Below are positions 20,301 to 64,000 of a stretch of 64,000 nucleotides of DNA, in pieces. Source of the stretch: Astropecten irregularis (taxonomy: Eukaryota > Echinodermata > Asteroidea > Paxillosida > Astropectinidae); assembly GCA_963971285.1 (NCBI GenBank), contig OZ020257.1, positions 15,390,602 to 15,454,601 of the forward strand, in the 5' to 3' direction. Position 1 is the stretch's first letter. Each line of letters opens with the position of its first letter. Under the pieces are notes generated by a model, which was given only the letters and a program-made list of their open reading frames with translations, was not told the origin of the DNA and made no database searches. Both the position numbers and the translations under genes were made by a program.

Positions 20301-23300
20301 ATCAACATTTCTTTGAATGAGGTTGTTTTATGTTTTTCTTGAACTTATATGAATACTAGTGTAACATTATGAATACAAGTAATTAACTGCTGCAAACTGT
20401 TCATCAACCAAAATATTGAACTGAAATTTATAACATGCTTGGAGTTAGGAAGGCCTGACACGTTTCGCCGATCCTAGCAGGATCTTTATCTAAGGCTGAA
20501 CATTATGAAGACTCAATATGGAACAGTTTAACATTTAAATCTCTCTCTATTTAGGATTGGAAACGTTCAGCCAGCTTGTGTACCAGTCATCTCTTGCATG
20601 GGTAAGGCTGCAGTTTATATCCGGTTAACTGGTTAACCGACCGTTCAAAAGGGTACTCGGGTACATTTTCCCAGTTAGGTTAATCGAAAAGTATATTTTT
20701 AATGGCCTCTTCTTTTTGAAACATATCTATAGACATATCTAGAGTTCACAAAGAAAACAATTTCAATGATCTTTTGAAAATTGGACCAGCAGGCTTATGC
20801 AAAGCAAAGGCCAAACATTTTGCTATGTATACCACTGCCAAATGTTGTGACAAAAGAATGTTGTCAACCAAGTTCCTAAAAGACCCAAACTTACTATTTC
20901 TTTGTTTTTCTTTGTTTTCTTTGTTATACGGGTAACCGTAACCGTAACCGAAAAACAGACGGGTAACCGGTTACAAAATTATTCGTAAACTTACAGCCCT
21001 ATGCATGGGTAAGCTATTCTGTTTGAAGTACTTGTCCCTCTGGAATGATATGGAAAGAATTAAGTCATAGGGTAAGGGTACTTTCAAATAGGCTTGGCAT
21101 GCTTATAATTGTTGTGACTGGTTCCTTGCTAAAGGGACTCCTGGCCACGAATTTTGCATGAATTTCCACATTTCTCAATGGTGATCTTGAGCGCAATTCT
21201 CAATCCCTGCCCAAGTTTTAAACTGGGGTGTGCAAAATTTTGAACCGCTAGATATTTTCTCCTGTTTTAAAATTGCGTACTGTATATGCTGAAGCCAAGA
21301 CGTCCGTGCTTCACAAACTGCCTTTGCTGATATGAACTACACGGTGCGAATAATTTTCCCCAAGTGATTACGTGAGTCGCTTGCACTCTTCACAAGGTCA
21401 AAAGTTGCGCTATTTTACTAAATCTAGATGTTGTTAAAGTTCTGATAATCCTCAGTTAACTTCACTTTTGTGTAATTTCTTTTAGTTTGTTGTCAACAAG
21501 ACGAGTATTATCGACTTTCCACGCTTTCCACATCGCGGGTTCCTCGTTGACACTTCTCGGCATTTCCTCCCAGTCAAAATGCTCTTCAAATTTTTGGTGA
21601 GATTATTTTTCTCTTGAAGAGTTCAGCACCCTAGCTGCCAGTAAGCAAATGAACCTTAGAAATTGCTTGATTGTGTCTCTGCTTATAACCAGTGGAACAT
21701 TAAATGTATTTCTACTAACACAGGATGCAATGGCTTACAACAAGATGAATGTCTTCCATTGGCACATTGTGGATGATCAATCCTTCCCATACGAAAGCAC
21801 AACCTATCCCTACTTGAGTCAACAGGTAAAAAAAGCTTACAATAAATGTTTCATTTCATTAGCTTTGTGGTATGGCATAATATCAATTAAAAAAGGTTGG
21901 GCTTAGATGATGTAAACGCTTTGGAGAAAGTTACAGATGTAAAATCTGAAATATGTTATATAAACTATCCCAATTTTCAATCCTCTTTTTTTTTATTAGG
22001 GAGCCTATACGCCATCTTATGTCTACAGCCAGGGGGACGTGAAGAGGGTCATCGAATATGCCCGCGATCGCGGCATCCGAGTCATCCCAGAGTTCGACAC
22101 GCCCGGACACACCCAGTCTTGGGGATCGGTGAATGGTCTCTTGACGCCCTGCCAAGACAAGACGGGGAAACCCACCGGTCTGTTCGGCCCCATCAACCCC
22201 ATACTGAATTCAACCTATGAGTTCCTAGAGCCGTTCTTTCAAGAGATTTGGAAGACGTTTCCTGATGATTACATCCATGTTGGTGGGGATGAGGTTTCAT
22301 TTAGTTGCTGGTGAGTTGACTTCCAAACTCATTTATCTCCAAAAAGCTTTTACATTGTATCTGTCTTTAATTTTCTTAAATTTTTGTGGCTGACATCAAA
22401 GATCACCCATGTTTGAACGAGAACAAATTCTCTGGCCTTTTTCTGCCCAGGGAGAGCAACACAGACATCCAGGATTTCATGAGTCAGATTGGATACGGCA
22501 AGAACTACTCCAAACTTGAAGCTTACTACGAGAAGAAGTTCCTGAAGATTGTGCAGGACCTGAAAGCTACACCCATCGTATGGCAAGAAGTCGTGGATAA
22601 TGGAGTCGAGGTAGGCACTCGTCATGTCACTGATGTTTTAGCCCTTCCTCGTAGTTGGAACAACACTTGATCTGATCGATATTGTCCTCTTCTGTTTGGT
22701 TGTTTGGCTTTCTTCTGAGAAGAACTTGACATTTCAAACTTCAGGAGAAAATTGTAATTACAGTACTCTGGACTTTCAATATAAACAGGCCCCGCTGTGT
22801 TTGTCACATGAATACACCGATCCAATAGGCCATGCCAATTTACAAAATTGACCAATCACAAGTAACACATTATTTAAGGTCCGACAAATTGCCGCCATTT
22901 TGTCTGACATAACGTTAATCAATTTTGTATTCTTAACTACACATTTTTCGTTGTTTTGTACATACAAGGCACTTATTTTAAAAACCATGAGTTTTATTCA
23001 TAGCCATGGTCAAGCAGTGTTTATATTTTCATTGTAATTCTGACTCTCGCTGCCCTGGCTATAAAGAGGAAATGTACATTGTTTGCCTTTTCCAACTCCA
23101 AACAGAGAGAAGTATTTTCGGTGGTTGATGGTGTGCAACGTGTCGTGTGTGGGCGATCGTGACACGTTGTGTGTGTGGGCGTGTGCATTGTTGCTTGGCC
23201 ATTGCTATGGTGGGCGTGGCCTACTGTATCGGTGTATTGTGTGAAAGACACCACAAAGTATAAGTCAGCTTATGAATAATTTAATCATAAAAATGGATAT

Positions 23301-29538: not shown

Positions 29539-29546
29539 TATAAAAT
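29539..29546 (+). promoter_or_regulatory. TATA box of the GPCR gene
   Basis: TATAAAAT, 71 bases upstream of the GPCR start codon. A transcription start near 29570 would give a very short 5' UTR, as is common for intronless receptors. Confidence 0.5.
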
Positions 29547-29609
29547 GCGGCACCGTGTTTGTTTCTGCCACATTTGATTCTCTACCGTGCATCTAGACTC
29601 TGTGCCACC

Positions 29610-30626
29610 ATGGATGTTGAACAGAAAGCAGAAACTCTGTCGGAAGCCGCTGTCATCGGTCTGGCCTGTGCCTGGGTCCTCTTGACGGTCACTAGTCTCG
29701 TGGGGAATAGTCTCGTCATCGTCGCCGTCCTCCTGTCTCAAAAACTCCGCACTGTCACCAACGCCTTCGTGGTCAATCTCAGCGTGGCCGATGTCTGGAT
29801 GAGCCTGTCCTATCCCTGGATGGTGGTGGCCATCACGGGCCGAGGCAAATGGCCCATGGAGTCTGAGATACCTTGCACGTATGCAGCTGCCCAATTCTTC
29901 ATCGGCCTTGGCGCCCACATGTACTCGCTGGCTGCCATAGCTCTCAATCGAATGATGCTCACCTCAGAGACTCTAGATACCTACAGGTGGTGGTGCAATG
30001 TCAATAAAGTTAGCCTGGTGATCTTTGCAACCTGGTTGGCCGTCCTCTTACCGGTGATGTTCAACATCGGAGTTCTCGGTTATGACGCAGTTGATAACAC
30101 GTGCACTGATAAGGGTGACCACGGCCGCGCTGATGCGTTCCATCTCATCCAGCTCATCGTCATGCTTGGCATGCCCATCGCCATCTGTATCGTGGCCTAC
30201 TTGTCTCTCTACGTGACTAACTTGAGGAGGAATGCTAACAGGAGAACCGAGTCCAACATCGAACCAGACTCGCCCATAGAAGCAACTGCGAGCTTCACTT
30301 TGGAGCTAAGCAGCAATGCCAGCGAACTGTCATCCCGAGTCAGAAGTGACGACCAGGCCATCACAAATTGCATGCTCATCGTGTCTTGCGTCGCCTTGGT
30401 ACTGGTTTTCCCCTATGGCATATCGCTCGGTGCAAGAACGAGTGGCGAGTTTGACATCTATGGCATGACGCTAGCCATCCTGACTTCCACCGTCAACCCC
30501 GTCATCTACACGGTCTATCATCCTCATTTCAAAGTGGTTATCAGGAACATGATTCGGTGTCGTTTCTCGGACATTCCTGAGCCTAGCATCATCCTGTCCC
30601 ATGGATGTTGCAAAAGATTTCTCTAG
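29610..30626 (+). CDS. intronless rhodopsin-class GPCR, orphan
   Basis: A single open frame of 338 residues starting in a perfect Kozak context (GCCACCATGG at 29610). Seven hydrophobic segments are visible. TM1 has GNSLVI (Asn33). TM2 has NLSVAD. TM3 is preceded by the conserved Cys (EIPC) and ends in NRM where most receptors have DRY. TM4 has Trp (FATWLA). Extracellular loop 2 has the partner Cys (NTCTD). TM5 contains a Pro. TM6 has VFPY in place of CWxP. TM7 ends NPVIY. The C-terminus HGCCKRFL has two cysteines that could be palmitoylated. Overall shape is closest to the melatonin-receptor/Moody-like branch, but the ligand cannot be inferred. It may belong to a lineage-specific expansion of intronless receptors. 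No truncation. Confidence 0.93.
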   Translation: MDVEQKAETLSEAAVIGLACAWVLLTVTSLVGNSLVIVAVLLSQKLRTVTNAFVVNLSVADVWMSLSYPWMVVAITGRGKWPMESEIPCTYAAAQFFIGLGAHMYSLAAIALNRMMLTSETLDTYRWWCNVNKVSLVIFATWLAVLLPVMFNIGVLGYDAVDNTCTDKGDHGRADAFHLIQLIVMLGMPIAICIVAYLSLYVTNLRRNANRRTESNIEPDSPIEATASFTLELSSNASELSSRVRSDDQAITNCMLIVSCVALVLVFPYGISLGARTSGEFDIYGMTLAILTSTVNPVIYTVYHPHFKVVIRNMIRCRFSDIPEPSIILSHGCCKRFL

Positions 30627-46083: not shown

Positions 46084-49000
46084 ATGTTTTGGGGTAAGTA
46101 TTCATTTCCAAAGTGGAATTTAATGGTCGTGAGAGACTTGATAAAACGTCATCACAAAGTTAATCCGGTAACCCTATGTTTTGCAGGTTTTCAGAGAATA
46201 AATGTAGGTAAACGACATTGCATTAGGTCTCCCCAACAAACAAGCATGACATCTCTTTTTCAATTTCAGCACACGTGTTTCCTCATGGCCAGATGGCAAA
46301 CTCGCCCCAATCTATTTATATCAGCCGTATCTATTCTTTCAAACATCTTCGCCCCAGTACTACAATACACACTCGTACAGAATGCATTATACATTATCAT
46401 GGGGGATTGTAGCTTTACGGGTCCTAAAACTATAAGGAAAGGAAACTTCTTTTTGAAAAGTAACTTACCTACTATACTTTGTTGGTCTCCTCCTCTATAT
46501 TACCAAGCTTAAATTTTTGGAAAGAGGGCAGGGCTTTGATTTTTGAGGGAAATTATGGGGTAAAAACGGTAACCGCCGCACGGACGGCCGCAGACGAGAA
46601 TAGTCTGGTTTCCACTCTGACATTTTGAGGACTCTTGGTCTGTTGGGTCTGGGCACTAGACTAATCAGACCAGACAAAATGGCCTCACGCGATCAGACGA
46701 CCGTCTGATCGCGTGAGGCCATTTTAAAGTTTACAAGAAGCGCGCAAGAAAATTGAATTTTAACCCTGAAATGTTTAACAAATTTCTTCAATGTAGGCTT
46801 TGAAGGACCTAGGAACATTTGCTGAAAGTCAAAAGTATCATTTTTGAGGAGTAGAAGTTAGTTCAGAGCCAAAAAAATCAATGTGTTTTGGGATCCCGTA
46901 AACCCACAATCGCCTTATCATGTATGTTTTTATAATAAATTTTTCGTAAATACTACCTAGATTCCTAGAAGCAATTACTAGGCCTTACATTATTACTTAG
47001 CTTTTTTACCAAGACTGGCAAGAGAGGGCGCTTCCGCAAAGCATTGTTGGATACATTTTCGATTTTGGTAGATCTGCATATCTACGTGACACACCCTTGG
47101 GCATCCAACCCGTACCTGTAACTTCCTGCGGTCGGTATTTGAATTTTGAAATATGGTCTACTGAAACCCGCACCCCCTAAACCACCACCCCCCTCCCCAC
47201 CCCATCACCCCCCCCCCCTCACCACCTCACCACCCCACCACCCCACCACAGCTGTTCTAGACTAGAGGCTTACTTTAGGTTTTTTTTCAACTTCAAGTGG
47301 AAATTCAAATTTCACTCTCAGGTTCCAAAGTCCCAACGTGTTCATATGATAACCTTTCTTTTCTGCTTCCCTTAATCTACTGTGTATATTGATTTTTCTG
47401 ATATTTTGTTGATCTTTGACAGGTTTGACTATTGAACCGGGAAAGCACTACACGCAGACAGTCGAGGAGTCCTTCCATGTTTCTATGGTTGCCTTGGATA
47501 CCAGAGATGTTGCCAGTAAGTTCTTGCCACTTGAGAAACCCTAAAAGTCTTGACTCGACAGAAAAGAAGATCTGTGGGGAATTATTTTTAATCCTCTGCA
47601 CCTACCACACGAGACAAGAGTTGGTTACCGCACATTACCGCACTCTCTGCAGGTGAACTGAATCATAAACCATGCATTACCACACAAACCACTCTGTGGT
47701 GTGCTGTGGTATTTTGTGGTATGCAGAATACCACACTAAGCACATTAAGAACCATGGTTGGTAAATTGTGGTATGCAGGTCATGGGTTAGGGTGAAGCAG
47801 TTAATATCTCATGATGGGTTTCTTTCGTCTTTTCATGCCATGTGTTTCCCCATCAGCCACAGAGAGAGAGCAAGCCAAGATGACGCAGTTGATGGTGCAG
47901 CACGACAAGGCAGAGTTCCTCGTCTGCACGCTGTGCTTCGGTAGCGTCTTACAACAGCCGCTGGATCTCAACTTCACAGAGGGGGAAGAGGTGACGTTCT
48001 TTTCCGAAGGAAGAGGTAATTAGAGTCTTCATCATACCAAAAAAGCTTCCCTCGCAAGTGGATCAAGGGGCCAATTTCATGGCTTTGCTAAGCACAAAAA
48101 TATGCCTAGCACAAAAATGGCACCATTTTTGCTCACTTTTTTTTGCCATTTTCAGGAACTCTGCACCTGACGGGTTACCTCGTGAAGGATGAGCCCCTCA
48201 CCCTGGACCCAGACATGATGTCCCTGGAGGAGCTGTCAAGCTTAGACGGGATGGCGAGTGACAGCGAAGGTACGTTGGACCTCAACAGGGTCTGGTCAGG
48301 ATCTGGGTCGAGGTTTAGCCACTCTGGCTTTTTGGCCATTTTTTTGGACAACCTGTTTTTGTTTTGAACATCCTGTTTCAACTTCATTATGAAATTCAAT
48401 TGATTTCAGATTATATATTAAGGCATGTTGTCTTTTTAAAGCACAAACTATTTTAAGTTGGTGACGTTCTATTCCTATATCTTGGTCTCAACTTTTGGTT
48501 GGATGCCCCAGGCGGTGCACAAAAGGAGTTTTAGATTTCACGACACGCCACCATGAAGCGGCCGAGCAGGCATTATTTCCTTAGTGCGCATGCTCACCTC
48601 AGATCTTGTAGCAAGCACGTCGTCCTAAACGCGACGACAGCATTATGACCTTTTCACGTTGTCGTGTTTCACACATGCAAAGCCCATGTACAAAAGCATT
48701 ACAGTGCATGCTGCGTTGTAGCTGAACAAATTCGGTCAGTGGTACCCCATCCGTTTCCCCTTGCGAGATCTTAAATAAGTGCCATGAATTTTAAGGATTT
48801 TTCCACGGATAAACCCTCAGAGCAGAAGCTAGTCAAGTCAAGCCCGAGATATATTACAATGGTAAGTTGAAAATTGGCATTGTCATTCATTTCAAAGGTT
48901 GTTGATTGAAACTAAACTGGAAAATGAATCATTAACTCACTACATGTACCTTCATCAAAGGACTTCATACATATGAAAAATGACACCTTTATTGCATTTT

Positions 49001-52000
49001 ACAAAGATTTCTATGAGACAAGTGATGTTGAGAATGAAACTGTCAAAACATTTGATTTTTTTTATGGGTCTTTCAAGCTGTATTTCAATTTTTGGATTGT
49101 AAAACTTTGTATGTCAAAAGTATTTGACGGTGCCAACTTTCAACTATCATTTGGTGAAGGTACAATGTAGTACAGTAACCACTGTTACTGAATTTTATCC
49201 TGAAAATTAATACAGGGGTTTTCTGGATTTTTGTTTTGTTGTATACATTAAGAAATAGTTTGCTTGAAAATCATGTTCTATTGTTTCCCTGATGAGTAAA
49301 AGTTCTACATTATATTAAATGCTTTTTATGTGGGTTAGATAAATTTACTTGTATCACGTAAGAAGACATCATTTTAATACAGGAAGAGGCATTGATAGGC
49401 CTGTATACATTAGTTTTGTGTTTATCTGTCAAATTTTCAGACATTTATTCCTTTTTCCGGATGCTTCACTCTGGACGTTTGATTTGTTTTTTTGTCACAG
49501 GTTGGGCATCGGGTGAGGAATCATCTCTGGATGACAAGGTCAGAGTTCAGAGGTCACGCCGAGCTCTGAAGAGGAAGTATGCCAGCTTCCTCTCTGCCAG
49601 ACGGAGACACTTTGATCTAGCACTGTACAAACAGCATTTGAGACAAGCAAATGCCTGCACCAAGTTCCCTTGGCGCAAGAGGCGCAAGTTGTCGAGAAAG
49701 CGGACAAGTTCCCTTCCGACCCATTTGGGTAGCGATGATGAAGACTTTTCTGTTCCCATGGGAAAGCTGAGGGCAAGTAGATGGCTGAGTCCAGCACCAG
49801 AACAGCAGGTTGTTTTACGTACTTCAGATAACGTGCGAGCAACACTGACCCTCTCAGAGATTCCTCAAACTGCTCCCAAGATGATGCCCAGAACAGGCCG
49901 TCATCGGGAGAACTTGGTTTTGGCTGGCAACCAAGGAGGTGCCACTTGGAGCCAGGCCCATGACGCACAAAGAAGGCATGCCCAAGCCCAATACACGCTG
50001 CAATCTTCTACAAGGAATCTTGAAGAGCCAGAAGATGTAATGATGGTCAGAAACTCGCGAGATGGAGAGCAGTCCAATCCTCGCTCGCGAAAAATTAGGA
50101 ATTTAGCTGAGAAGGTCAGCCTATTGAAGACAAACTCTAACTCGCTGGTGCGGGACTATGCAGCAGGAAGAAACATGACACCCTCCCGGGGGTTCTCCCA
50201 TCAAGTGCCAATGCACGTCCAGCGATCTGAGCTCCAGTCCTCAGAATCAGCTACGTCTGGGAAACACGCCACTCATGCAGCTCCCAGTGACTCATCTGCC
50301 AAGACCGACAGCCATCAAGTGGAGGATGACTCAGTCTCTCCCACGAAGGGCCGCTCTAGGAAGAGACAGCTTAAAAACAAGCCGGGGATGGCGCGACAAC
50401 CCAAGCGCATGTTGAGCACCGGTTTCGTGCTGCCTCACAAGAAGATGTTTCAGAGGAAAGTGAATCCCAGGGGCCGGGCGAGACGGCCGGGCGTGCAGTG
50501 GAATGAAACGCTTCCTTCAGGTACCGCCTCTGTTGTGGATCAAGAGGCTGCTCAAATGACCGGCTCTCATTTTGATGATGTTAGCTTGGGACAGGGCCTG
50601 ACCGAAGAACAAGGCCAACATCCCTCCGATTATGCAGGTAGGTACTAATTAGCTACAGTAATTATGTCATTTTAAAAGAAAAACAGGGAGAGGACCATGA
50701 AAGCGCAGACAAAAAGTGAAGTTTTGCAAAAGTCACTTTCATTGTGATTAGGAAATATCATCAGAAAAGGCCTATATTAAGGCCACTAGGCTCTATAGTG
50801 TAATTTTTCTTTTGCATCCCCATGTGATCTTGATTCCACCTGTTAGTTTCTAAAAAGAAAGGCCTCCGAGTTTAACTGCACTTTTAAAAACAAAGATAAT
50901 AATAACATTGTGCTCAACTAATTGGACTATTGATGCAAAACCTTATTGATAAATAACCTTTTAATGTGTGAATGTGTGTTTTTGGTTCTCACAGATGCTA
51001 GTGGTCAACAGCCAGGGGTCAGTTTCACCAATCAGGAACAACGGTGTCCCCCTGTTGGCATGATCCCTCAACCTCGCCACACATCGACCGTCAATGACCA
51101 GCCAGGCCCCGGCGAACCCCTTGAGCAGTACCTCATGGACAGTAAACAGGGTCTAGTGCCTACGTCGCTGGCTATGGCTGCAGGCGCTGGTATGGACACA
51201 TCATCGCCGCCAGTCCCTGGGGTTGGTGGTAGTAGCGGTCAGACCATGGCCGTGCGGGACACCAGCGGGGTCTACTGGAGCTGTCTGTCGGATGAGCAAG
51301 CCGAGATGGGTCAAGGGGATGCTGAGAGGTTTGCCTTGAATGCTGGCAGCTCCATACCCGTTGCCACAGACATGGACTTTTTAACAGCTGAAGACATGTC
51401 CTGCAATGGCGTCAATGTAAGTCATATCTCTATGTAAGACTTACCGGTACTCAGTTGATACAACAATCATTAATAATTCATTTGTGGAAGGTTTTGAATG
51501 ACTCACATGAATATTAAAATCTTGATGAGTAACTACCACGTTCTCTGTGAACCAGAACCTTGTACTGACATTCCAGCCAGTATGTCAGCTTCCTGGCCCA
51601 GCCTTGGGTCAGTAGTGAAATTGGTTCTTAATGGTCTGAGTCAAAGTAATAAGTCGTAGGAATACAAGGCAGTGTTGGGTTGGGTTCCACTATGGAAAGC
51701 TTTTTAGCGAGAAGGCCTGTGGGTTTTGCATGGACAATATCTCAAATTCTGAACTTTTAGGTGAGGAGGCTTGCCGTTAGATGAGACAGCTCCTTTAACG
51801 GATTACGCGGGGTCCAATTCTTACCCATCAGATTGGGAATCAGAAAATCCGCCTCTCCCACGGCTACGACGTCTTCGTGACTCGCTTTGATCTCTGGCAA
51901 GCTGAGAAGTCTTCCTCCAAGAAGGGCTGGACCATCCTGACCAGACGTCTGCTGGACATCTTCTTTGATCGGATGACATTGGCCATGGGTAAGCCCACTC

Positions 52001-55000
52001 ACCACGGCAACAGCATGGAGTACATCCCGCTGGATCAGAATGTTGTCGGCGCCATTATATGTATGTATACTTAATGTCACTATCATACATTGGTAGCATA
52101 CCAAAACAGAAATGTATACAGATTTACACTTAACTTTAGGATATGAAGATGGTGATGGTAGAAACATACTGTTTTTTTTCTGCCTGAAATGCCGTATTTA
52201 TCCAGAAAAGAGTAAAACCAATGACTGAAAACAACTTTGATCTTCCGAAGAATCGGACAATTTTACGGAATTTGTTTTCATAATAAGATCATAATATAAA
52301 TTTAGTTTTCTCTTGTTTTGGATCTTTCAGCTTTCATCAAAGCTCGCTATAACATTACTGAAAAGCGTAAGTTGATACAGGCCATCAGTATCTACTGCAG
52401 TGACTGCCGCAAGTCAGGAGTCCCTGGACATTTAATATAAAAGAGGAGAAGAGTCAATAAGTGATAAACATTTGAAGTGATGAGGTGTTAGTGTTACCCT
52501 GGGTGCTAAAAGCTGGACGGTCCTAAAAGTTCTCGACTGAGACATTTCTGCTGTGAAATAACCAAGTTGACACATTTGATGAAGTGTCTGTGATTTCCCC
52601 CGATGATATTATTGTGTGTGAATTTTGAGTGGAAAATGAAAACCCCAAACAAACTACAGTAATCTATATGCCACAGAAGCCATTAGTACTAGATCTCACA
52701 ACTCGTGCATTGAATCCTTTTGAAGATATTTACATTATTTGATTGATTTGTGTATTTATCATTCCTTGATTGCCTACTCAATTAATAACTCCTATAAATG
52801 GTATGTTTTGTGCTCAGAATAGAGACAGTTTGAGAAGTTTGACAGAAACCCCTGAAGTTATACATGTATAGGTAGGAGCTACACAAAAAAACAACCCTTT
52901 ATTGAATCATGAAACTTTGTTTATTTATGTGAGGGAACAGGTTTTTAACTGTGTTGGTTGGTCAAGTACAAAAACATACAACTTTTATCTTCAGTATCTT
53001 ATTCCTCATCCCTATGGCAGAGTCAAAGACTGTAGGATTCTCGTAGCACAGACTTTGGACTTTTTCCAAACTGGGCCAGCAAACCCATATTCGTCTGGGC
53101 TTGCTCTGCAGGCCTACATCATAAAAGTCCAAGTTCTTTTTTTGAAGGGGGAGGGATGGGGATATTTTTTTGTTATCTCATTTGACGTCCTGACTGGCAC
53201 TTTAAGCTCACAAACTTAAATTTTCTTCCTGATAGAGTCATCAAGTATCAATTAAAACAATAAACTAATATTTTTAAACGTATATTTTTGTAGTGTTTCC
53301 CCTTAAACCGCTTTCAATAATTGTTATAATTGTTTGTTTTTCAGTGCAGCAGATTGTTTATGTTTATTTTAACACAATTGAAAAGTGTCGCTACAATTTC
53401 TGATGATTTAATATTTAATTCACATCTATTTTAAATATGTAGGATTCAGAATTTAGAATTCCAGACTGTAGCAGTATTTTTAAGCAGATGGACAAGGAAT
53501 AACTGACTTTTAATAGGAGTGAAAGGACATTGCTCTACAAGTTGTCGAATTTTATATTTAAGATTTTCTCAATGATGTGACATTTTAGCAAAGAGATTAA
53601 TTGATTGTAAAGTAAGTATTCATTTGAATTTATCATGTAGAAGGCAAAAATAATTAAAACATTTGTACAAAGACTGCCACCTATTTTCCAGTAAAACTCA
53701 AATAAATCTTGCCGCTTATTATTATAGAAAAAGAAAAATACATGTGGAGCGTTTGGCTTGCGGTTGTATTCATTATTCATTGTGTGACATAATGATTACA
53801 TATGTACTCTGTAAAACTATTCTGACTTGTGTGTGATAATCATGTAGATAAGGAAATCAAAGGTGATCAATTTTGTGCGATGTCGTGTTGCTGGTAGTGA
53901 CATTTTGGACGCTGGAACTGCTAGCCTTCATCAGGCAACCAGTAGTGTAGACACGTCCTTTAGACCTGGGGGGGGGGGGGGGGGTGATCTTGTAGCTGGG
54001 TCGTACCTCCATATAGGTTTGTGCACAAAATCATTTTTAATATATATAAAAAGTGAAAACCTGGGGGGTTGCAACCCCTAGCCCTGATCTACGCCCATGC
54101 AGGCAACAGTTGCCTGATTAAGGCTAGCAGTTCCAGCAGCCGAAACATCGCTACCAGCAACACGACATCGCATGACATTGATCACCTTTTTTTCCTTCAT
54201 CTGTATCCACCGCGATGAATAACCCTTTCCTTTCTATTGATTCAGATGTATAATTTGGTCATTTTCTTGGGTACTCAGGGCTGTACAGTCCCTAGGCTGT
54301 AAATTTCAGGAGTGACGGTTTCACATCTTATGGCCTGAGATAATTACACAAAGTACATTTATATTTTTCTCTGTTACGGTATGCCCTGTCTATTCATAAT
54401 GGGGACACCAGTCAACCTTGTCCCCACCCTCTAGCTTGTTTTGTGCAGTATACACAACCATTCCCAGGTCAGGGCTGTCCCGTGGAAGCAAAAAACGAAC
54501 CAACCTAGTCTTTGAACATTTTAAACGCCAAAACAATGAATTTGAAAATCCTTATATTATAGCCGTCCTTGAATGCACAACACATTATTCTCCAAAGCCG
54601 GATGACTAATTTGGGAATTTATCAAATGGTAAGTTGAAAATTGGCATTGTCACTCCATCAAACAAAATTAACTCAATTTTTCATGAAAAAAAAACTACTA
54701 ATAAAACCATTGTTTTTCATTGGTACAATAATTGAAACTGTTCTTCTTGTACCAGCATCAAATGATAAACTAAATTTTGGCCTTGCCTCCATGAAATAAT
54801 TTTGCTTGCCTTACCTTTTTGCCATGAATTGAAGTTTTTGTCTATTATGAATCATGCTAGACCTTGTATCTTGGAGGTTATTTCCAATGGACAGTGCCAG
54901 CTTTCACTTTATCATTTGAGGAAGGTTCAGTGTTGTACAGTTCAATAGTTAGTGGAGCTAATGCAGTTTTGATGAAATTTTGTTAATACACAAAGATGAA

Positions 55001-58000
55001 TGCTTGGAGTTTCAACCCTAGCAGGCTTTTGACTTTGCATCCCTCTTTTTTTGATTAGGTTGGGCCTCTGGTGAAGACTCATCTCAAGAGTGTCAGGTCA
55101 TAGGTCAGAGGCAGCGCCATCTTGGGTCTCATCCGAAAAAGGGACACCAGAATCTCGCAAGTTGTCGAAATGTGGAGTCGCGCCGAGGGTTTCCCAGGAG
55201 GGAGACGATGCAGGCCAGGATCCGATGGAGGAAAAAGAGGAAGCTAGCGAGAAAAAGAGCAAAGTCTCGTCAAAAAAGGAGATTCTTGGCCGGCAGTGAG
55301 TTCGACCGGCCTTCCAGGAGAGGATGCAGATGCTGCGGTTCAGCTCCCAGGGAGATGACAGGTGGCGGTCTGCAGATGCATGTTCAAGATGGGCACGTCA
55401 TTCTTCAGACATCGGACAACATGTCGCTAACGTGGAGGCAGTCTCAAAATCCAGACCTCAACTCTGAACCTCCTAGATCTGCTCCAAAGGTGACCACCAA
55501 CTCTCCTCAGCAGTGCAAGCCACATCCTGAGGAGGAACCTGTGAAAGAATCTTCGGACGTTGTCATTGTTGAGGACTTGGATGTCGTAAATGGTCAGCAG
55601 AAAGCAACGTCAAGTACAGCTCGTGGAGTCCGCTCCACGGCAGCCAAACCCAAGCCATCGGCATCACAAACAAGAACACACCCTGAAACCAGTACTGCCC
55701 CTTCATTGCCAAGCCGCTCTGATCCAACTTCGGGTGTCGAAATGCTTTACATCCCCAAAGATGCACGCCAACCTTCCTCTGCCATACAAGCAGAGAGCTC
55801 TAAGACAAACCCCTCATCACGTCCCAAGAAGGTCTCGCATTGTGCGATCACTCCCATCATATCCACGATGAGGCACCCCCTGAAGAGGAAACCGATCAAA
55901 TTGAAAGCTAAATCCAAATCGATGCCCCTGAAATCCAGAATGAGTATTAAGCAGCGGCATGTGGAACGTTCGCAAGGCAAGGGTCCCTTCTTTCCGCAGA
56001 GGAAATTGGCCCAGAGAAAAACAACGACCAATTCAGACACCACCCTCCAGTGGAATGAGGCTTCTACGGTTGACCTAACTAACGAGAATGTTGATTTCAG
56101 CCAGCCAGTTATTTCCAATGTGGTCGGAGGTCAAGATGCTGTTGAAATGACAAGCTCCTGTTTCGACAGCTCCCCCTCTAGACAGGAGATGCAGATATTA
56201 CAGGAGGAATCATACCAACAGAGAGGTACAGTTGGCAGCCCAGAATTTGAGCTTTCATTTCAGAAAAAGCAACTATTTAGGCAGATCATGGCAGATAGTT
56301 TAAAACAGGACAACTTGAGAAAGATAATCCTCAACAGACTTGTTTCATTCCTGAAATGCCATGTGCTAAATCCCAATAATCAGGTTAAGCCTGGGCTGGA
56401 ATTCAGTCTCTCAAAACCTGGATGAAATGGAAATGACAAATATTGCTTAACTTTTTAGCTTTTTTACTTTATTCAAATTTTCGGATTTTTGACTTATTAC
56501 AAATATTGCTTAGGGCATGTAGTTCCATGTTTTTAAATGTCTTTTTAGTATGGTATTATTATTGTGCTCATAATAAACTATTATGAAATTACATTTCACG
56601 GATGGTTTTCATATTTGAAGGATCAAACCAATAGCAACATGAGTTTATAATTACCTCTTATTATCAACTTCTTTTTTCTAAAGATGGAGATGTTCAACAT
56701 GACGTCAGCGCTGCCAGCCTTGAACAAAATGCCGGACCAAGCTCCCAGGCTCATTGCCTTGCAACCGACAATCAGACGGAACCAGACCATAAGCCCGGTC
56801 TGGTAACCTATCCCCTGCCCGTGGCTGTAGGCCCAGCGATGGACACATCATCGGCACAGGTCACTGATGAGGCAGTAGGGGACCAGACTATGATGGTACA
56901 GAATGTTGACGGCGTGTACTGGAGCTGCATATCCGATGACTTGACCGATGTTGGCATGGCAATGGCAGATAATCCTATGGGAGAGGAGGAGGAAGACATA
57001 CCGGTCGCCACTGATATGAGGCCATTGACTACGGCAGACATGACATGCAACGGGGCAACTGTGAGTATTTGCAGGCAATTCTTTGTTGAAGAATTTAATT
57101 GAATACTGCTTTTGATAAAAAATAATAACTTTGTACAAAAATCTTGATTTGTCTATTTTCTAGTACATATCATCTCGGGTATTGGATTTGGAATGAAACG
57201 GCTTAAGTACTTGTCACAGATAAATATGTTATCTTGCAAAGTAGTCAGTAAAGTGTTAGTCCTTTGTGATTCATCTAGTCTATGATAAAGAAAACAAGAG
57301 GTTAAAGACTACTTTCTCTTTGTCTTTTGCGTTGTAGCTGTCCAATCAGAAAATACGCCTCACCAGAGGCTACGACGTGTTCCTCACCCGATACGACCTG
57401 TGGAAAATAGAGAAATGCTCCAAGAACTCCTGGTCCATCTTAACCAGGCGACTGCTGGACGTCTACTTCGATAGGATGACCCTTGCTATGGGTCGGGCCA
57501 GCCATCACGGCAGCAACGGTGACCATAAGCCGCTTGACCAGAATGTGGTCGGAGCCATCAGGGGTGAGTAGTATATCATGGTCATTCTGTGTCATTAATA
57601 CTTTGTTGCTTGCGCTGCTCAAAGCAGACACGCCTTAGTCGAGGGAGGAGCTTAAGTTGATGTATAACAATGATACTGGAAAGCTCTCCCTAAAATTGCT
57701 AGACATGGTGGAGGAGTAAGCCTTTGTAGGAAAACTTTTTCGACCAATGGTCTGATACCACTGACTTCTACCATGTCACATGGACAGCCAACATATGAAT
57801 TCCCCAGACTAAGGACACTGTTGATACATCACATGATTTAGGGCACCTCTTTAACAGAACAGGGGTCGATTTCACCAAACTCATAATAACTTGCTATCAA
57901 TGGTAAGACTATGTGATGCATTGCAGCCCTACGTAGGATACGGCGGGTTATGCTTCGTAACTCGACTTACGATGGATCGTACAGCTTCGTGAAATCGGAC

Positions 58001-61000
58001 CCTGGGCTTTTTATGCAGAACCCAACCACAATAATTCTCTCTGGTTTGAGGTTTATTTTACTATAACTTTAATATCTCTTTGTTTCCAGACTTCATCAAG
58101 ATTCGTTATAACATTGATCGGCGGAGACTGATGCAAGCTATCGGGTTCTATTGCAGTGACAGTCGAAACAGAATGCTGAAAACTCTTCATCAGTGCAACA
58201 TTAAACCTGGCACATTTACAAAATGATTCTCACATGTATTCTTTTTAATGGCAGCATAAGTATTCCACTTAATACACCACAAATATTGCTAATATTATTG
58301 GAGCCACTGTAAAGAAACACAATTTTTTACTTTCCTGCTTGTTGTCAAAGTCTCTGTTGTCATATGTTAAAGAATCGTTTCTTTTTGTGACATCATCTGG
58401 CAGTTAGAGAATCATGTCTTTTTGACAAATTATCAATGTCGTCTTCATTGTCAAGATTTGAAAGAAAAAATGGATTGACTGGTTCATTACGTGTTAGGAA
58501 GCTATATATTGTGGAACCAGCTTGGTTGGTAATCAGCAGAGATTGCTGTACAAGTGGATCCTTTTAAACCAGCTCAACTGGTTCCCTGACAGAGAGGGAG
58601 CCAGCTTGCCTGACTTATTTGCTTATATCCTGTTTACACATTTTTCAGGTTTTGCAATTGTATGCCACTTTTTTGTTGTCATGGCAATACCATGGACATT
58701 CCTGTTTTCTATTTTAAAAAAATGAATATCCTTCTTGTGTCTTTCTTTTTAGGGGATAGGAGAAAAACAATTGCTGTATATTTTATATGAAAAAATTCAA
58801 TTTTTATTAGATCCATAATTCATAATTTTCTACCACATTGAAAGGCAATATAATGGAATTGAGGACTAAGACTGGGGCTTTTTCCAAACCTTGGCTCTGG
58901 CTCAGGCTCTTGCTCTGGTTCTGGCTCCATTTCTGGAATCCATTATAAAATAAAGAGTTTCAAAATAGAGGCTTTTTGGCTGCGGTTCAGAAGTAGATTC
59001 TCTGGTCTGAAAAAGAAAACAGCTACATCTTTTAATGAAAAATCACAACCTATATTTTCAGCATATGGATGCCTAGCCTTAGCCGGAGTCGAGGTTTGGA
59101 AACGGCCCCCTGGAATACAAATCTAGAAAACAAGTGCCTCATATTAAACTTAAACCCCCCCCCCCCCAAAAAAAAAAAAAAAAGAAGAAATTCTTCAAGC
59201 TTTCTAAAAAATGTCCATATTTCAAACTTGGTGTTTTTGCTAAGATTAATTTAGATATTATTGGGATCATTGGATACCACATTTATTTGTTAATATTTTT
59301 AAGTCCGGGTGATAGCAATTTTTATGTAAGGTTTTGCATCTCTCAAGAGATAACTTTTTGTCGGTTGCACTGTACTCTTTATAAAAGTCAGAGATGGTCT
59401 CTGTGTTATATCTAGGGAAAACGGCGCCCAGGGCAAGCACTAAAATTGGGCTCGTAATTCCAACTTGTGATGCCAATGGAACAAAATAACACAATTTGAA
59501 ATTGAATCTTTTCTTTCTTTGTTCATTATATTTCAAGATAACTTCAACAGTACAGCTACCATTCTTTTTTTCCTTTGCATTTTTTGCACCTCACTACAAA
59601 GTGGCCCCCTTGCCCTCACCCCCTAGATATGCCTTATGGATGGAATGAACCAGACAGTATTCAGATACATTTATTACAAGAATGATGGTTATCTGTAGGA
59701 GTAAGAGTAGTCCATTTTGATTTGAGGGATGCGGGGCATCAGAACAATTGCTGACAACGATCAACTTAGGTATACACAGCAGTGCCTTCCCAGATTTTTA
59801 GTGTTTGGTGGCTATAATTTTGTCAATAATGACACAACTTCACTGAAATTACCCCCAAATCGTGATCATCATGAAGGATTTTCCCCCTGATGGAGAATAT
59901 TTCTCGTTGCCTATTATGTAAACATGTGTTTCTCATCTCTGTGTAGAATTAGAATCATAGTTCACTGTGTTTTCGTTTAACTTATATTGTAGAATCATGA
60001 ATGCTTTGTAAATGTGTGCTACAAACCATTAAACTCTGTTTTTAAATTGGTAAATTTGTGTGCATTTCAATTATCTGTTTGTCCATTCAGTTAGTTTGTA
60101 GAACATTACACTACAAAGCTAATGTCTATTAAATTGCTGCAGACTCTTCAAATGAAATGAACTCTTCAACCAAAAATGATGATCTGAAATGTACAATGTA
60201 TATAATGCTGAGAATTATACAAGCCTGATGTTCCGATCCTTTCGGGATTTTTCACAAAAAGGCTAAATGACATAAGTAACGCATGCACCAGTGGATGAGA
60301 GGAGCAGCAACAAATTATCAGTGGGTTTTTGATGGGACAAACCAAGTTTCTCCTGAAATGACAACTTTCCTTCTTGTCTTTCAGATGAGGATGAGATGGA
60401 AGATGCAGACGATGATGATGAGGAGGAGGATGGTGAAGATGAGGAGCCTTCTTTGCAGGAGCTCGCTGTTGCCTCCTTGGAGGAAGAGGAAGATGAAGAT
60501 GATGACGACGATTGGAAGCCAACGGATGGTGAGGCTTTGTTCCCTTGTCTTTAGTGTGGCCTTATGTCCCAATGTCAAGATTTCTTCAGGCTCAACTTGT
60601 TGAAGTTAACTTCTGTATTAAAAATTTCACGAACCCATTTTGTTTCGCATTTTTCCGTAGGTAAAATGAAAAGAAAGAAGAAGCAGAAAGAGAAGAAAGA
60701 TACCAAGCGTCAGCATCTTGAGGATGTAGAATCAGGACCCAGAAAAGCCAAGAAGCTTGCCCTGTTAGGTATGTTGGCTAATCTGTCTCTCTAGCTGTAG
60801 ATGTTCAAGTCAACAATTAATTTGGATTTCTCCTTTGCAAATTGGTGATTAAACTGTAAATGTGCAGGTTGTAAGTGATACGTGTTTATGTGTTAGGATA
60901 CTGCTATGGCATTATTTCTGTTGATTGGTCTTTTGTTCTTTCAGAGATGAGTAAAAGCTCAGGTGATGATGATGATGATGATGAGGAAGATGACATGGAC

Positions 61001-64000
61001 TTTGATCCCGAGAAGGCCGTCGCAGAGAATGCCGAAGATCAAGACGAGGAATCGAATAGCAGCGAAGATGACGATGACGACCTTGACAGTAGTGATGAGG
61101 ATGGTGAGGATTATGTAATGTATCGTGAGTCAGACAGCGATCTTGAAGAGGACGAGGAAGATGAAGAGGTTGCAGATGAAGATGCGAAGACAACACCCCG
61201 GAGCAAGCGAGCAGCCAAAGACAAAAAGCAAATGCAAAGGATTCTGCAGTCCAAAGAGACCAAGGCCAACAAGGTAGAGACTTTAATTATGCAAATTATG
61301 CAAACTATGTAAATTATGCAATTTATGCAATTTATGCAATTTATTCAATTTATGCGATTTATGCAGTTTATACAATTTGTTCAAATTTCACAAATTGGTG
61401 AAATATTGGAAATTTTGGAAATTATGCAAATTGAAAGAAGATATGCAAAGATATGCTTGATTTAGAATGCACATCACAGATGAGTTCAAATGTAAACCAT
61501 GCACAATAGACCAGGTTGAAGTCCAGTCCATAACCTCCAAGACCAAAGCTGAGACCAAGGCCATCCAAAACTGGCCTTGAGGCCTCCGATCCAACACTGA
61601 TTATAGCATGGCAAGTACTGCCACATACACTATAATCCTAACCATTTTCAAAACTCAAGTCAAAATCTGATCTTTTTCAGTCATCAGAGAAGAAGGCAAG
61701 TTTGAGCGACAAGGAAAACGTCGAAAAGCCCCAGAAGCAGCCTCGGAACCAGTCCACACCTAAGACACAGGGAAACAAGCCCGGACAGCAAGGCAAAACA
61801 CAAGGCAGTAAGACACCTGCCGCGGATAAATCCCCAACGAAAGCATCTTTGAAGAAGGAGGGTAAGACACCAGTCGGTAAGAGCAAGGGGAACAAAACAC
61901 CAGGGGGCAAGGTGCTTAGAGATGAAGCAGCGGGCTCTGGAACCCCTGTATTAAAGACGGAACCAACAACCAACAAGACACCAAATGGCAAAAAATCTGC
62001 TGCGAAGACACCAGCTACTCCTGCTGGGACTCCTAACGGCAAGATGCATGGAGATTCTAAGATGGATGGAGGAGGTGATAAAAAGGAATCAAAGACGCCC
62101 AAGGTGAAGTCAGACGGTCTGACAAGCCAAACACCGAAGAGTCAGAAGAAGGAAAAGACCAAGAGCCAACAACCCGTCAAAACACCGGTAAGAGGAATGA
62201 TAATTCAGTTAATACCCCTAAAATGAGGAAGTAACCGGAATGTGAATGTTTTTATCAATAACACAACTGGTAGATAAGTCGTTAAAGTACAATAAAACTT
62301 GAACTTTCCTCTTATATTATGAATGCCTTTTAAAAAAATGTGTGATTTTTTTTTCGGTTTCAGAAGAAAGTGAAGTTACCGGGTGGAACGGTGATAGAGG
62401 ACCTTGAAATGGGAGACGGCAAGGTGGCAAAGAGCGGGAAAATGGTAGGATAGACATTTTTGTTTGTTTGTTGGGGTGTTTGTTTATTTGTTGGTTTGTT
62501 TTCTTTTGGGGTAAGGATGACATTAATGCATGTGGAACCATTCAGCACAATTTTGGTGCAATTTGTTATTTAACCCAAACAGTGTATAGATTTTAGCTCT
62601 TTGTAACCTGATCGTTAAAATAACCAGTACTGGCAGATTTGGAAACAGAGTGGCATTAGTATTTTACACATGAAGCAAACGTTCTCCCTTTGAGGACAGT
62701 AGAAACAAATTCTTTTTCTAACAAATTGATTATTATGATTTACAGGTGCATGTCTACTACCAAGGGTCCCTGGCTGGAAATGGCAAGGAGTTTGACTCTT
62801 GCATGAAAGGCAAACCGTTCAATTTCAGGCTGGGTAGATCGGAGGTCATCTCGGGCTGGGATACTGGCATAGTTGGTGAGTGACCATCTGGCTGATTGAC
62901 CATCTGGCTTCAAAGCCGGGGACTTTCTCAAAGCTCGGCTACGGCTCTGGCTTCATCTCTGCCATCTATATGCTGAAAAAATAGGTTGTGGTTTTTCATT
63001 GAAGCTGAAGCTATTTTCCTTTTCAAACTTGAGATTCTACTTCTGAAGCACAGCGAAAGGTCTCTATTGTAATACCCATAAATTTATAATGGATTCACAA
63101 AATGGAGCCGGAGCTGAAGCTGGAGTCGAGCTTTGAGAAAGGCCTAAACTGTTATGTAATAGTATGTCCTTGAGTAAGAGGTGTTGCTGTGATTTCACAT
63201 ACCGGTAGTTGTATGGATAATGATATAAATTGATATCCAAATATTCTTTGCTCAGGTATGAAAGTGGGAGGCAAGAGGCGTTTGACAGTTCCAGCAAACC
63301 AGGGGTAAGTTCAGTCTTCATTTGGATTTTAATATCTAGATTATTCTAGCCGTCAGTAGAATTATCCTGCAAATTTACAAAGATAACAAAATAATGAAGA
63401 CTTGTGGAGTACCATATTGTATTAATTGTGCTTGTGCTCCACTTGTGACGAGTGCTTTTCTGTACTAAGGTGCACTGGCTGGAATTAGCATAAGTCAACA
63501 GCTTTAAAGGTATAAAACATGGTTGGGAATGGTCACAGAACAGCACTCACACTTTGTATACTAATCCAACATGTTCATAAAATAACACACCTGTGAACAT
63601 TTTAACTCAATCGGACATCCGAGTCATGAGAAAATAGCAAAAACCTGACTCAATTTTTCTTATAAAACATAAAGAATGGTTTTGATCTTACCCCAAGTTC
63701 AAAACTGTTTACAGTCTTTGTTTTACTAATCTCAGGATAAATACACCATTTCAGGCAGTATTTCTTTAACGGTACAGTGTACATGTACACTGTATATGTT
63801 TCTACCATCACCATCTTTATATCCTGAAAGTTATACATAAATCTGTGAACATTTCTTTTTGGGTATGTTACCAATCCTGTACTGTACCTTTAACCGATAA
63901 TATTCTTGATATGCAAAAAATATAACCTAGTACTCGATCCCTCTGTGTTATTCTTGTCAGGTATGGGCAGAGGAAGATGGGCCCTATTCCTTCAAACAGC
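46084..64000 (+). CDS. nucleoplasmin-like FKBP (FKBP39/46 type), 3' partial
   Basis: Nuclear immunophilin: N-terminal nucleoplasmin-like histone-chaperone domain, acidic and basic linkers, C-terminal FKBP prolyl isomerase. Exons: 46084-46093, 47423-47515, 47857-48015, 48156-48269, 60385-60528, 60661-60768, 60945-61273, 61681-62187, 62364-62444, 62746-62875, 63256-63304, 63961 to beyond the edge. Phases all match and give 588 residues in the window. Residues 1-125 read MFWGLTIEPGKHYTQTVEES onward, the family signature, with conserved VALD and PLDLNFTEGE. Then come Asp/Glu tracts (126-173 and within 210-319), a Lys/Arg-rich stretch likely to be a nuclear signal (174-209) and a Lys/Thr/Pro-rich linker (320-488). 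The FKBP domain starts at 489 (PGGTVIEDL) with VHVYYQGSL, FDSCMKGKPF, VISGWDTGIVGMKVGGKR and GYGQRKMGPIPSNS. The 12-kb intron 4 contains two BEN-domain cassettes. The first coding exon has only ten bases. Confidence 0.94.
46676..46725. repeat. perfect 24-bp inverted repeat, 2-bp loop
   Basis: Arms 46676-46699 and 46702-46725 are exact complements (left arm begins AAAATGGCCTCACGCGATCA), separated by AC. It lies in FKBP intron 1 and could form a cruciform or hairpin. A related GACCAGAC/GTCTGGTT context occurs just upstream, so it may be a small palindromic element. Confidence 0.85.
47160..47250. repeat. C-rich low-complexity tract
   Basis: A mixture of CCACC, CCCC and CACC units in FKBP intron 1, ending about 170 bases before exon 2. 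Simple-sequence expansion with no coding role. Confidence 0.8.
48068..48120. repeat. fragment of the 4664-4922 MITE
   Basis: GGGGCCAATTTCATGG is followed by GCTAAGCACAAAA and a second GCACAAAA string, as at the left end of the 4664-4922 element. Only the terminal 50 bases remain. It sits 35 bases upstream of FKBP exon 4 and probably contributes part of its intron. Confidence 0.55.
48780..48885 (+). other. candidate BEN1 leader exon and donor
   Basis: A 28-base block around AATGGTAAGTTG (48858-48885) is identical at 54625-54652. Each copy lies several hundred bases before a BEN cassette. It contains a good splice donor, ATG|GTAAGT. If spliced to the BEN exon at 49501, no upstream ATG is in the required phase, so it could only be a 5' UTR exon. 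Whether it is an alternative first exon, an enhancer or a repeat is open. Confidence 0.35.
49501..52440 (+). CDS. BEN-domain cassette 1
   Basis: Four exons: 49501-50637, 50995-51416, 51832-52060, 52331-52440, with matched phases and stop at 52438-52440; 632 residues without any head. The first exon enters in phase 1 at GWASGEESSLDD and has basic clusters (RRALKRKYASF, WRKRRKLSRKR) likely to be nuclear signals, then Ser/Gln-rich disorder. The second exon carries GVYWSCLSDE. Exons 3-4 encode a BEN domain: RLSHGYDVFVTRFDLW, LTRRLLDIFFDRMTLAMG, LDQNVVGAIISFIKARYNI. BEN domains bind DNA and chromatin factors. There is no in-frame ATG at the 5' end downstream of the acceptor until about 49758. The acceptor phase equals that of FKBP exon 5, so this may be an alternative tail of the nucleoplasmin-like gene. 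A separate nested gene is the alternative. AATAAA at 53259. Confidence 0.88.
52075..52260 (+). repeat. partial TTAAAGGTA-family MITE in BEN1 intron
   Basis: Starts near ACTATCATACATTGGTAGCA and follows the family through GATGGTGATGGTAGAAACAT and the AAAAGAGTAAAACCA block. It begins 15 bases after the donor of BEN1 exon 3. The right half is absent or diverged. Confidence 0.6.
53259..53264 (+). terminator. candidate poly(A) signal after BEN1
   Basis: AATAAA in an A/T-rich context about 820 bases beyond the BEN1 stop. If used, it would end BEN1 transcripts well before BEN2 and before the FKBP tail exons. Usage is not shown by sequence alone. Confidence 0.4.
53862..54188. mobile_element. MITE with ~75-bp inverted ends between BEN cassettes
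   Basis: The left end begins GGTGATCAATTTTGTGCGAT and continues GTCGTGTTGCTGGTAG, GCTGGAACTGCTAGCCTTCA and TCAGGCAAC. The right end is the complement with a few mismatches. The interior carries a G17 run near 53969. It lies between BEN1 and BEN2, with no coding capacity. Confidence 0.8.
54540..54652 (+). other. candidate BEN2 leader exon and donor
   Basis: Counterpart of 48780-48885, sharing the identical 28-base block (54625-54652) with donor ATG|GTAAGT at 54628/54629. In the phase needed to join the BEN2 exon at 55059, a TAA stop lies about 20 bases upstream and no ATG follows it. As in BEN1, it cannot supply the start codon. Confidence 0.35.
55059..58226 (+). CDS. BEN-domain cassette 2, paralogue of cassette 1
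   Basis: Same four-exon plan as cassette 1: 55059-56225, 56684-57060, 57338-57563, 58090-58226, stop at 58224-58226; 635 residues without any head. The first exon begins in phase 1 at GWASGEDSSQEC, with WRKKRKLARKR and ILQTSDNM aligning to cassette 1. The second exon has MDTSSAQV and GVYWSCISDD. The BEN domain reads RLTRGYDVFLTRYDLW, LTRRLLDVYFDRMTLAMG, LDQNVVGAIRDFIKIRYNI, and ends KPGTFTK. A stop codon (TGA) lies just before the acceptor, so translation cannot begin upstream in the same exon. The first in-frame ATG inside it comes after 48 codons, past the conserved GWASGE. This favours splicing from an upstream coding exon; FKBP exon 4 fits in phase. Confidence 0.88.
57864..58004. mobile_element. 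GGGTCGATTTCAC MITE in BEN2 last intron
   Basis: Left end GGGGTCGATTTCACCAAACT, right end the near-complement ending GTGAAATCGGACCC. It matches the nested MITE at 1997-2148, in inverted orientation relative to it. Confidence 0.7.
58871..59110. mobile_element. MITE of the 27156-27399 family
   Basis: Shares AAAATAGAGGCTTTT, GGCTGCGGTT and ACCTATATTTTCAGCATA with 27156-27399, with similar CTCTGGCTC-rich inverted arms. It lies between the BEN2 stop and FKBP exon 5. Just after it (59154-59185) is a C11/A16 run. Confidence 0.65.
59410..59640. repeat. dispersed repeat shared with 31110-31350
   Basis: Collinear match with 31110-31350 from GGGAAAACGGC to the T-rich end. From 59641 to 60384 nothing is recognised apart from a short TCCTTTCGGGATTTTTC fragment near 60236, related to the GATCCTAGCAGGATC strings at 20490 and 27530. 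Confidence 0.6.
61284..61440 (+). repeat. ~10-bp repeat rich in ATGCAAAT octamers
   Basis: Units of ATTTATGCAA, with a period of about ten bases, fill 61284-61375 in FKBP intron 7. ATGCAAAT, the POU-factor octamer, occurs exactly at 61289-61296 and 61424-61431. It begins eleven bases after the exon 7 donor. Confidence 0.7.
62917..63147 (-). mobile_element. reverse copy of the 27156-27399 MITE family
   Basis: Contains TATGCTGAAAAAATAGGTTG and CTATTGTAA-type blocks that are the complement of the family's interior, with GCTCCGG-rich inverted ends. It lies in FKBP intron 10. Confidence 0.65.
63504..63893 (-). mobile_element. TTAAAGGTA-family MITE, full copy, FKBP intron 11
   Basis: Bounded by TTTAAAGGTATAAAACATGG and the near-complement ending GTACTGTACCTTTAA. 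Its interior is close to 740-1079, and it has an extra palindromic GTACAGTGTACATGTACACT string. It fills most of the last intron before the window edge. Confidence 0.8.

Follow-up and report, generated by a model that had tools for sequence, protein, structure and literature searches.

In the sea star Astropecten irregularis, one gene very probably splices a nucleoplasmin-like (NPL) head to alternative, self-contained 3' cassettes, which encode either an FKBP tail or one of two tandem BEN tails, BEN1 and BEN2. The gene lies in what is called here the window, that is, the whole stretch of DNA that was analysed, 64,000 nucleotides of contig OZ020257.1. The window holds this gene structure with its domains and a set of conserved intronic elements, and matching models are present in other species; we infer that this species makes each of the three mRNAs. 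In the explanation that we regard as best the FKBP tail is the ancestral tail, and a single locus would place a histone-chaperone domain on either an enzyme or a DNA-binding domain. As sea stars serve as embryological models, the choice of tail could be traced through development.

Exon structure of the locus

The initial annotation had proposed that NPL exon 4, ending in phase 1 at 48269, faces three phase-1 acceptors on the same strand, at 49501, 55059 and 60385, and that each tail is open to its own stop or to the window edge. Both proposals were borne out by the rebuilt exon models, which are as follows.

46084..46093, + strand: NPL exon 1, coding part (rebuilt model); reads ATG TTT TGG G, and orthologous proteins begin MFWG
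47423..47515, + strand: NPL exon 2 (rebuilt model)
47857..48015, + strand: NPL exon 3 (rebuilt model)
48156..48269, + strand: NPL exon 4, the last common exon; phase 1 end, then gtacgt; junction residue the same in three other sea stars
49501..50637, + strand: BEN1 cassette exon 1 (rebuilt model); opens GWASGEESS
50995..51416, + strand: BEN1 cassette exon 2 (rebuilt model)
51832..52060, + strand: BEN1 cassette exon 3, BEN domain part 1 (rebuilt model and Pfam)
52331..52440, + strand: BEN1 cassette exon 4, BEN domain part 2 (Pfam); stop TAA at 52438-52440
55059..56225, + strand: BEN2 cassette exon 1 (rebuilt model); opens GWASGEDSS
56684..57060, + strand: BEN2 cassette exon 2 (rebuilt model)
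57338..57563, + strand: BEN2 cassette exon 3, BEN domain part 1 (rebuilt model and Pfam)
58090..58226, + strand: BEN2 cassette exon 4, BEN domain part 2 (Pfam); stop TGA
60385..60528, + strand: FKBP tail exon 1, acidic (rebuilt model)
60661-60768, 60945-61273, 61681-62187, + strand: FKBP tail exons 2-4, charged linker (rebuilt model)
62364-62444, 62746-62875, 63256-63304, 63961-64000, + strand: FKBP tail exons 5-8, FKBP domain (Pfam), cut at the window edge

The observation of one NPL head followed by three same-strand, phase-1 tails is confirmed, and every intron used in the head and the three tails is GT-AG. The head is an NPL domain by Pfam (PF17800, E 9.7e-25) and is about 90% identical to the heads of Patiria and Acanthaster. 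The agreement in phase was weighed as evidence for a swap of tails and found to be weak: because every one of the four NPL exons (46084-48269) finishes in phase 1, and BEN1 and BEN2 are homologous duplicates, the match amounts to one event that chance would produce in about 1 of 3 cases. The strong support is found outside the window, in gene predictions from three further sea-star species, whose proteins part at the same residue.

Both BEN cassettes are nested in the 12-kb intron that separates exon 4 from the FKBP acidic exon. The predicted fusions have lengths of 757 aa (NPL-BEN1), 760 aa (NPL-BEN2) and more than 588 aa (NPL-FKBP), and the BEN domains of BEN1 (E 1.2e-5, 25.8 bits) and BEN2 (E 8.7e-6, 26.3 bits) both exceed the curated cut-off of Pfam family PF10523, 23.2 bits. 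The C-terminal FKBP domain, which follows the acidic linker (FKBP_C, E 3.2e-24, profile positions 3-85 of 94, cut at the window edge), is present in the FKBP isoform only and absent from the BEN isoforms. Cis-splicing of exon 4 to BEN1 or BEN2 would use an alternative last exon set with its own stop and with downstream poly(A)-type hexamers (at 53251, 53259, 53653 and 53701 for BEN1, and at 58949 and other positions for BEN2), and the skipping of both cassettes would give NPL-FKBP.

Two repeats were observed among these exons. Directly 3' of an FKBP-tail donor, positions 61285-61432 hold 16 copies of a 9-bp tandem repeat, AATTATGCA, and between BEN1 and BEN2 there is an inverted repeat with 94-nt arms that are 84% complementary (53846-53939 and 54109-54202), which resembles a foldback element or a small transposon relic.

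Matching gene models in other echinoderms

NPL-BEN proteins, which the initial annotation had suggested seeking in other echinoderms, do occur there as predicted models. Two protein searches gave 38 distinct proteins, the sea-star entries all being automated predicted models. An NPL head is joined to a BEN cassette in Patiria miniata (P0001, 757 aa, isoform X2), Asterias rubens (P0002, X1) and Acanthaster planci (P0003, X5), and to an FKBP tail in the same species (Patiria P0005, X4; Asterias P0007, X3; Acanthaster P0004, X4). The NPL-BEN and NPL-FKBP models are identical over their first 125 residues in Patiria, 126 in Asterias and 125 in Acanthaster, and in all three species the point at which they diverge is the window's exon-4 junction, with [E/G][W/L]ASGEESS on the BEN side and DE[D/E]E on the FKBP side. 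The two models of each of these species are also listed on contigs of equal size. From the equal contig sizes, the identical heads and the isoform numbers, the paired models appear to be isoforms of one gene, the FKBP entries being listed without a LOC number. A predicted model from the crinoid Anneissia japonica, P0038, likewise combines NPL (E 2.4e-22) with BEN (E 2.3e-8).

These models bear on the possibility that the NPL-BEN proteins are annotation artefacts, or rare and functionless read-through products. Every sequence is a computational prediction, P0003, the NPL-BEN1 model of Acanthaster, has an out-of-frame end and no BEN domain, and there is no experimental paper. However, the same junction residue in three genera fits the independently modelled sequence of the window, the junction motif [G/E][W/L]ASGE[E/D]SS is conserved as protein, and NPL and BEN are joined in the crinoid too; artefact is for these reasons a very improbable account. 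In Pfam the BEN domains of several models score under the 23.2-bit cut-off (P0001 21.1 bits, P0002 17.3 bits and P0037 20.2 bits). A search with BEN alone gave three matches, all from sea stars, and it missed P0002 and P0038, so that it is no gauge of how widely BEN is spread.

The three products that had been predicted are not equally represented among the models. Patiria (P0001 and P0005) and Acanthaster (P0003 and P0004) each have models of NPL-BEN1 and NPL-FKBP with identical heads, which supports a single locus as the source of both products. The NPL-BEN2 product has less direct support, which consists of the GWASGEDSS opening, shared in conserved form with BEN1 and the NPL-joined models, the lack of an upstream start, and an NPL-BEN model in Asterias (P0002) that is not of BEN1 type. 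In a tree of seven BEN domains the window's BEN1 groups with Patiria P0001 (100/100); the window's BEN2 has no well-supported partner, and Asterias P0002, again not BEN1-type, is not firmly placed. BEN2-type models that lack NPL and begin inside the cassette are present in Patiria (P0037) and Acanthaster (P0008), and these models speak against a purely tail role for BEN2. We read the evidence as indicating that NPL-BEN2 exists, with a BEN2-only form possible beside it.

A related question is whether the BEN cassettes are independent genes with promoters of their own, lying inside an intron of an ordinary NPL-FKBP gene, in which case a 5' non-coding exon would end at the GTAAGT of a conserved intronic element (element A, described below) and translation would start at an ATG inside the cassette. 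The NPL-less models P0037 and P0008 fit such an arrangement, as do in-frame ATGs at codon 87 of BEN1, at codon 51 of BEN2 and at 49461, 5' of BEN1. The last of these also qualifies the earlier claim that neither cassette has an in-frame start before GWASGE, which stands for BEN2, where none lies upstream, but fails for BEN1. Against independent genes, three sea stars and a crinoid have models in which NPL is joined to a BEN cassette, and the GWASGE start, which is conserved as protein, would be untranslated; by eye, BEN1 and BEN2 differ at four sites in their first nine codons, three of them synonymous. We consider nested genes improbable as the whole explanation, and independent transcription is unlikely as the sole mode of BEN expression; as an additional mode alongside the fusions it is quite possible.

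Other combinations were encountered among the listed proteins. In the brittle star Amphiura filiformis, the NPL-FKBP protein P0009 also carries a SAMD1 winged-helix domain (PF21524, E 1.9e-22), a further DNA-binding module for the NPL-FKBP gene family; its near-twin P0010 is listed without the SAMD1 domain. P0035, named Homer protein 1, is listed with NPL and WH1 (PF00568) and could be either a further NPL fusion or a gene-model error.

Conserved elements in the BEN entry introns

When the two cassettes were compared by blastn, two colinear conserved stretches, A and B, appeared outside the exons, in the introns that lead into BEN1 and BEN2, conservation here being that between the two duplicate introns of this window.

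48858..48888, + strand: element A1, 31 nt, docking-like; 30/31 identical to A2
49126..49176, + strand: element B1, inverted partner of A with a conserved 3' extension; about 81% identical to B2 (blastn); predicted to pair with A1 and A2
54625..54655, + strand: element A2, second 31-nt copy; 30/31 identical to A1
54890..54941, + strand: element B2, inverted partner 5' of BEN2; found by blastn to B1; predicted to pair with A1 and A2

B repeats A imperfectly and in inverted orientation. Element A is more alike between the two introns than is coding sequence, because 30 of its 31 positions agree, whereas in the BEN domains of BEN1 and BEN2 only 58 of 110 third codon positions and 13 of 28 fourfold sites are identical. 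There is no compensatory change, as A is invariant between the two introns. No third copy of A's 24-nt core occurs within 3 mismatches on either strand of the whole window, and neither A nor B was found before the FKBP exon by a pattern scan and a partner scan of the window. A 24-nt B pattern allowing up to 3 mismatches matched B1 alone; it missed B2 because B2 carries a one-base insertion (by eye).

The predicted sense-strand duplexes have energies of -33.6 kcal/mol for A1-B1, -35.8 for A2-B2, -29.9 for A1-B2 and -41.4 for A2-B1. In each of four tests that took A's partner in its own or in the other intron, none of 300 dinucleotide shuffles of the intron gave a duplex as strong. Over about 6,400 + strand windows, the two best partners of A were B1 and B2 and those of B1 were A2 and A1; the partners of B2 ranked as A2, an unrelated site at 21351, and then A1. 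The A2-B2 helix is present in the minimum-energy fold of the intron 2 segment.

In the pre-mRNA, the A and B elements ahead of the BEN cassettes may base-pair. Pairing of A1 with B1 or of A2 with B2 would be local, while pairing of A1 with B2 or of B1 with A2 would loop out the entire BEN1 cassette, so that local pairing would compete with pairing across BEN1. Such pairing is the most likely control of tail choice, although we put it forward tentatively; were it to operate, RNA-pairing control would extend from single exons to whole protein ends.

There is an even chance that A and B are instead the inverted termini of an ancient transposon, or two inverted protein-binding DNA sites of an enhancer or alternative promoter, that were copied when the cassette was duplicated and do not form an RNA switch. 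The inverted arms, about 240-270 nt apart, resemble terminal repeats or paired sites, the conservation of B runs past the paired part, and no Rfam family matched in the window at the gathering threshold. Moreover, the A1-B1 helix is absent from the minimum-energy fold of the intron-1 segment, where other pairings are preferred. A transposon relic, however, would be expected to have changed as much as the sequence that separates its arms, and A is more similar between the introns than the coding exons are; and in all four A-B combinations, which are not independent tests, the antisense duplexes are weaker than the sense ones, as the G-U wobble predicts for RNA. Binding of protein to the elements as DNA stays plausible.

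Element A also bears on the idea of nested BEN genes raised above, since it holds a consensus donor, ATG/GTAAGT, at the same place in both introns. A donor there would suit the 5' non-coding exon of an independent gene, but by eye an exon that ends at A joins the ATG out of frame with the cassette, and the conservation of A extends into the intron well past the donor site. A coding mini-exon with its end at A was considered as well, and was rejected because stops in frame occur a short way upstream of it in both introns (by eye).

Domain structure and DNA contacts

The predicted structure of P0001 has a mean pLDDT of 49.5, being good over NPL and poor over the linker and BEN, where the means per block of the BEN part lie between 32 and 78. 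Among the 50 fold matches listed for this model, 49 are nucleoplasmin-type chains, 4ca9 included, and none is a BEN structure. The NPL of the window itself matches chain 4ca9_A of Drosophila FKBP39 (E 4.7e-14), a protein that one paper reportedly describes as a tetramer. In the part of PMC4414354 that deals with FKBP39 and its relatives, their NPL domains are said to form pentamers. An NPL ring of this kind would oligomerise either the isomerase or several BEN domains, and an NPL-BEN ring would accordingly be multivalent. For BANP, another BEN protein, selection of DNA requires oligomerisation according to the relevant portion of PMC11472053.

The closest solved relative of both BEN tails is the BEN domain of NACC1, 8yzs (E 5.7e-5 for BEN1 and 9.6e-7 for BEN2), whose DNA-contact residues, including the base-reading Arg469, were taken from the section of PMC11472053 that names them. 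As judged by eye from the alignments, Arg400, Arg401 and Arg468 of NACC1 are kept in BEN1 and BEN2, and Arg421 and Arg429 are not. The position of Arg469 is occupied by Lys in BEN1 (in the window and in Patiria) and by Asn in BEN2 (in the window, Patiria and Acanthaster), the BEN1 residue having been placed through the alignment with BEN2, as the phmmer alignment of BEN1 with NACC1 ends short of the Arg469 helix. Because the base-reading position differs in this way, the two tails may read different DNA.

With a ring of NPL domains, the locus would alternate between a histone chaperone of general action and one that binds DNA multivalently and is directed by sequence. The fullest version of the argument joins all of these parts: duplicated complementary intronic elements would act as an RNA switch that co-transcriptionally chooses whole protein ends, the NPL ring receiving either the isomerase or one of two BEN sets with different sequence preferences. 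As a whole this RNA switch is rather unlikely; were it true, the choice of tail would direct an otherwise general histone chaperone to particular loci.

Comparison with known systems

In its head, acidic linker and FKBP_C tail, the FKBP form resembles the NPL-FKBP chaperones, such as Drosophila FKBP39, the 46-kDa FK506-binding nuclear proteins and yeast Fpr3/Fpr4. The BEN forms resemble NACC1, a BTB-BEN protein, in placing a domain that oligomerises at the N terminus and a BEN at the C terminus; in NACC1 the former is the BTB domain, and BTB domains oligomerise. Unlike in NACC1 and other BEN proteins, the head here is a nucleoplasmin-like histone-chaperone domain, and BEN is one of several spliced tails. 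The pertinent passages of a 2015 overview name three NPL arrangements (with FKBP, with the plant HD-tuin zinc finger, and with no extra domain; PMC4414354), and NPL-BEN, unlike the NPL-FKBP chaperones, falls outside these and would add to them. No description of NPL-BEN was found in the open-access literature. The earlier statement that no described gene swaps these tails stands for that literature, but not for the automated isoform models at NCBI, which already hold the swap.

The joining of common 5' exons to one of several 3' cassettes recalls mod(mdg4) of Drosophila, where, in the part of PMC12692577 that treats it, splicing is wholly in trans and the 3' exons come from their own promoters. 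Unlike in mod(mdg4), the cassettes here lie in order on one strand, so that cis-splicing suffices, and the folds that are swapped, FKBP and BEN, are unrelated. Insect Dscam and srp offer a likeness of another kind, in that tandem duplicated cassettes are each preceded by complementary intronic elements able to pair competitively (as the portions of PMC6071210 and PMC8042237 on these genes describe), the pairing being predicted in the present case; competing docking and selector elements arise by tandem duplication, in the account given in that part of PMC6071210. The differences from docking and selector systems are that here both arms are duplicated, that the alternatives are multi-exon ends with stops rather than single internal exons, and that the FKBP option has no selector element. 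Because no selector was found before FKBP, the locus is not classed as a member of such systems, and the likeness is one of layout.

Neighbouring features of the window

Upstream of the gene, a tandem array with a unit of 1453-1455 bp runs from 36662 to about 45891 and ends about 200 bases 5' of NPL exon 1. It comprises about 6.3 copies, with neighbouring copies 98-99.7% identical, and a 94-aa minus-strand ORF recurs in it seven times, the last copy having no Pfam match. Further upstream, on the + strand, an intronless open frame of 360 aa at 29544-30626 encodes a rhodopsin-type 7TM receptor (PF00001, E 8.7e-27), and exons of a glycosyl hydrolase of family 20 (beta-hexosaminidase type) lie on the same strand between about 21600 and 23640 (PF00728, E 1.8e-26 for 22000-22314).
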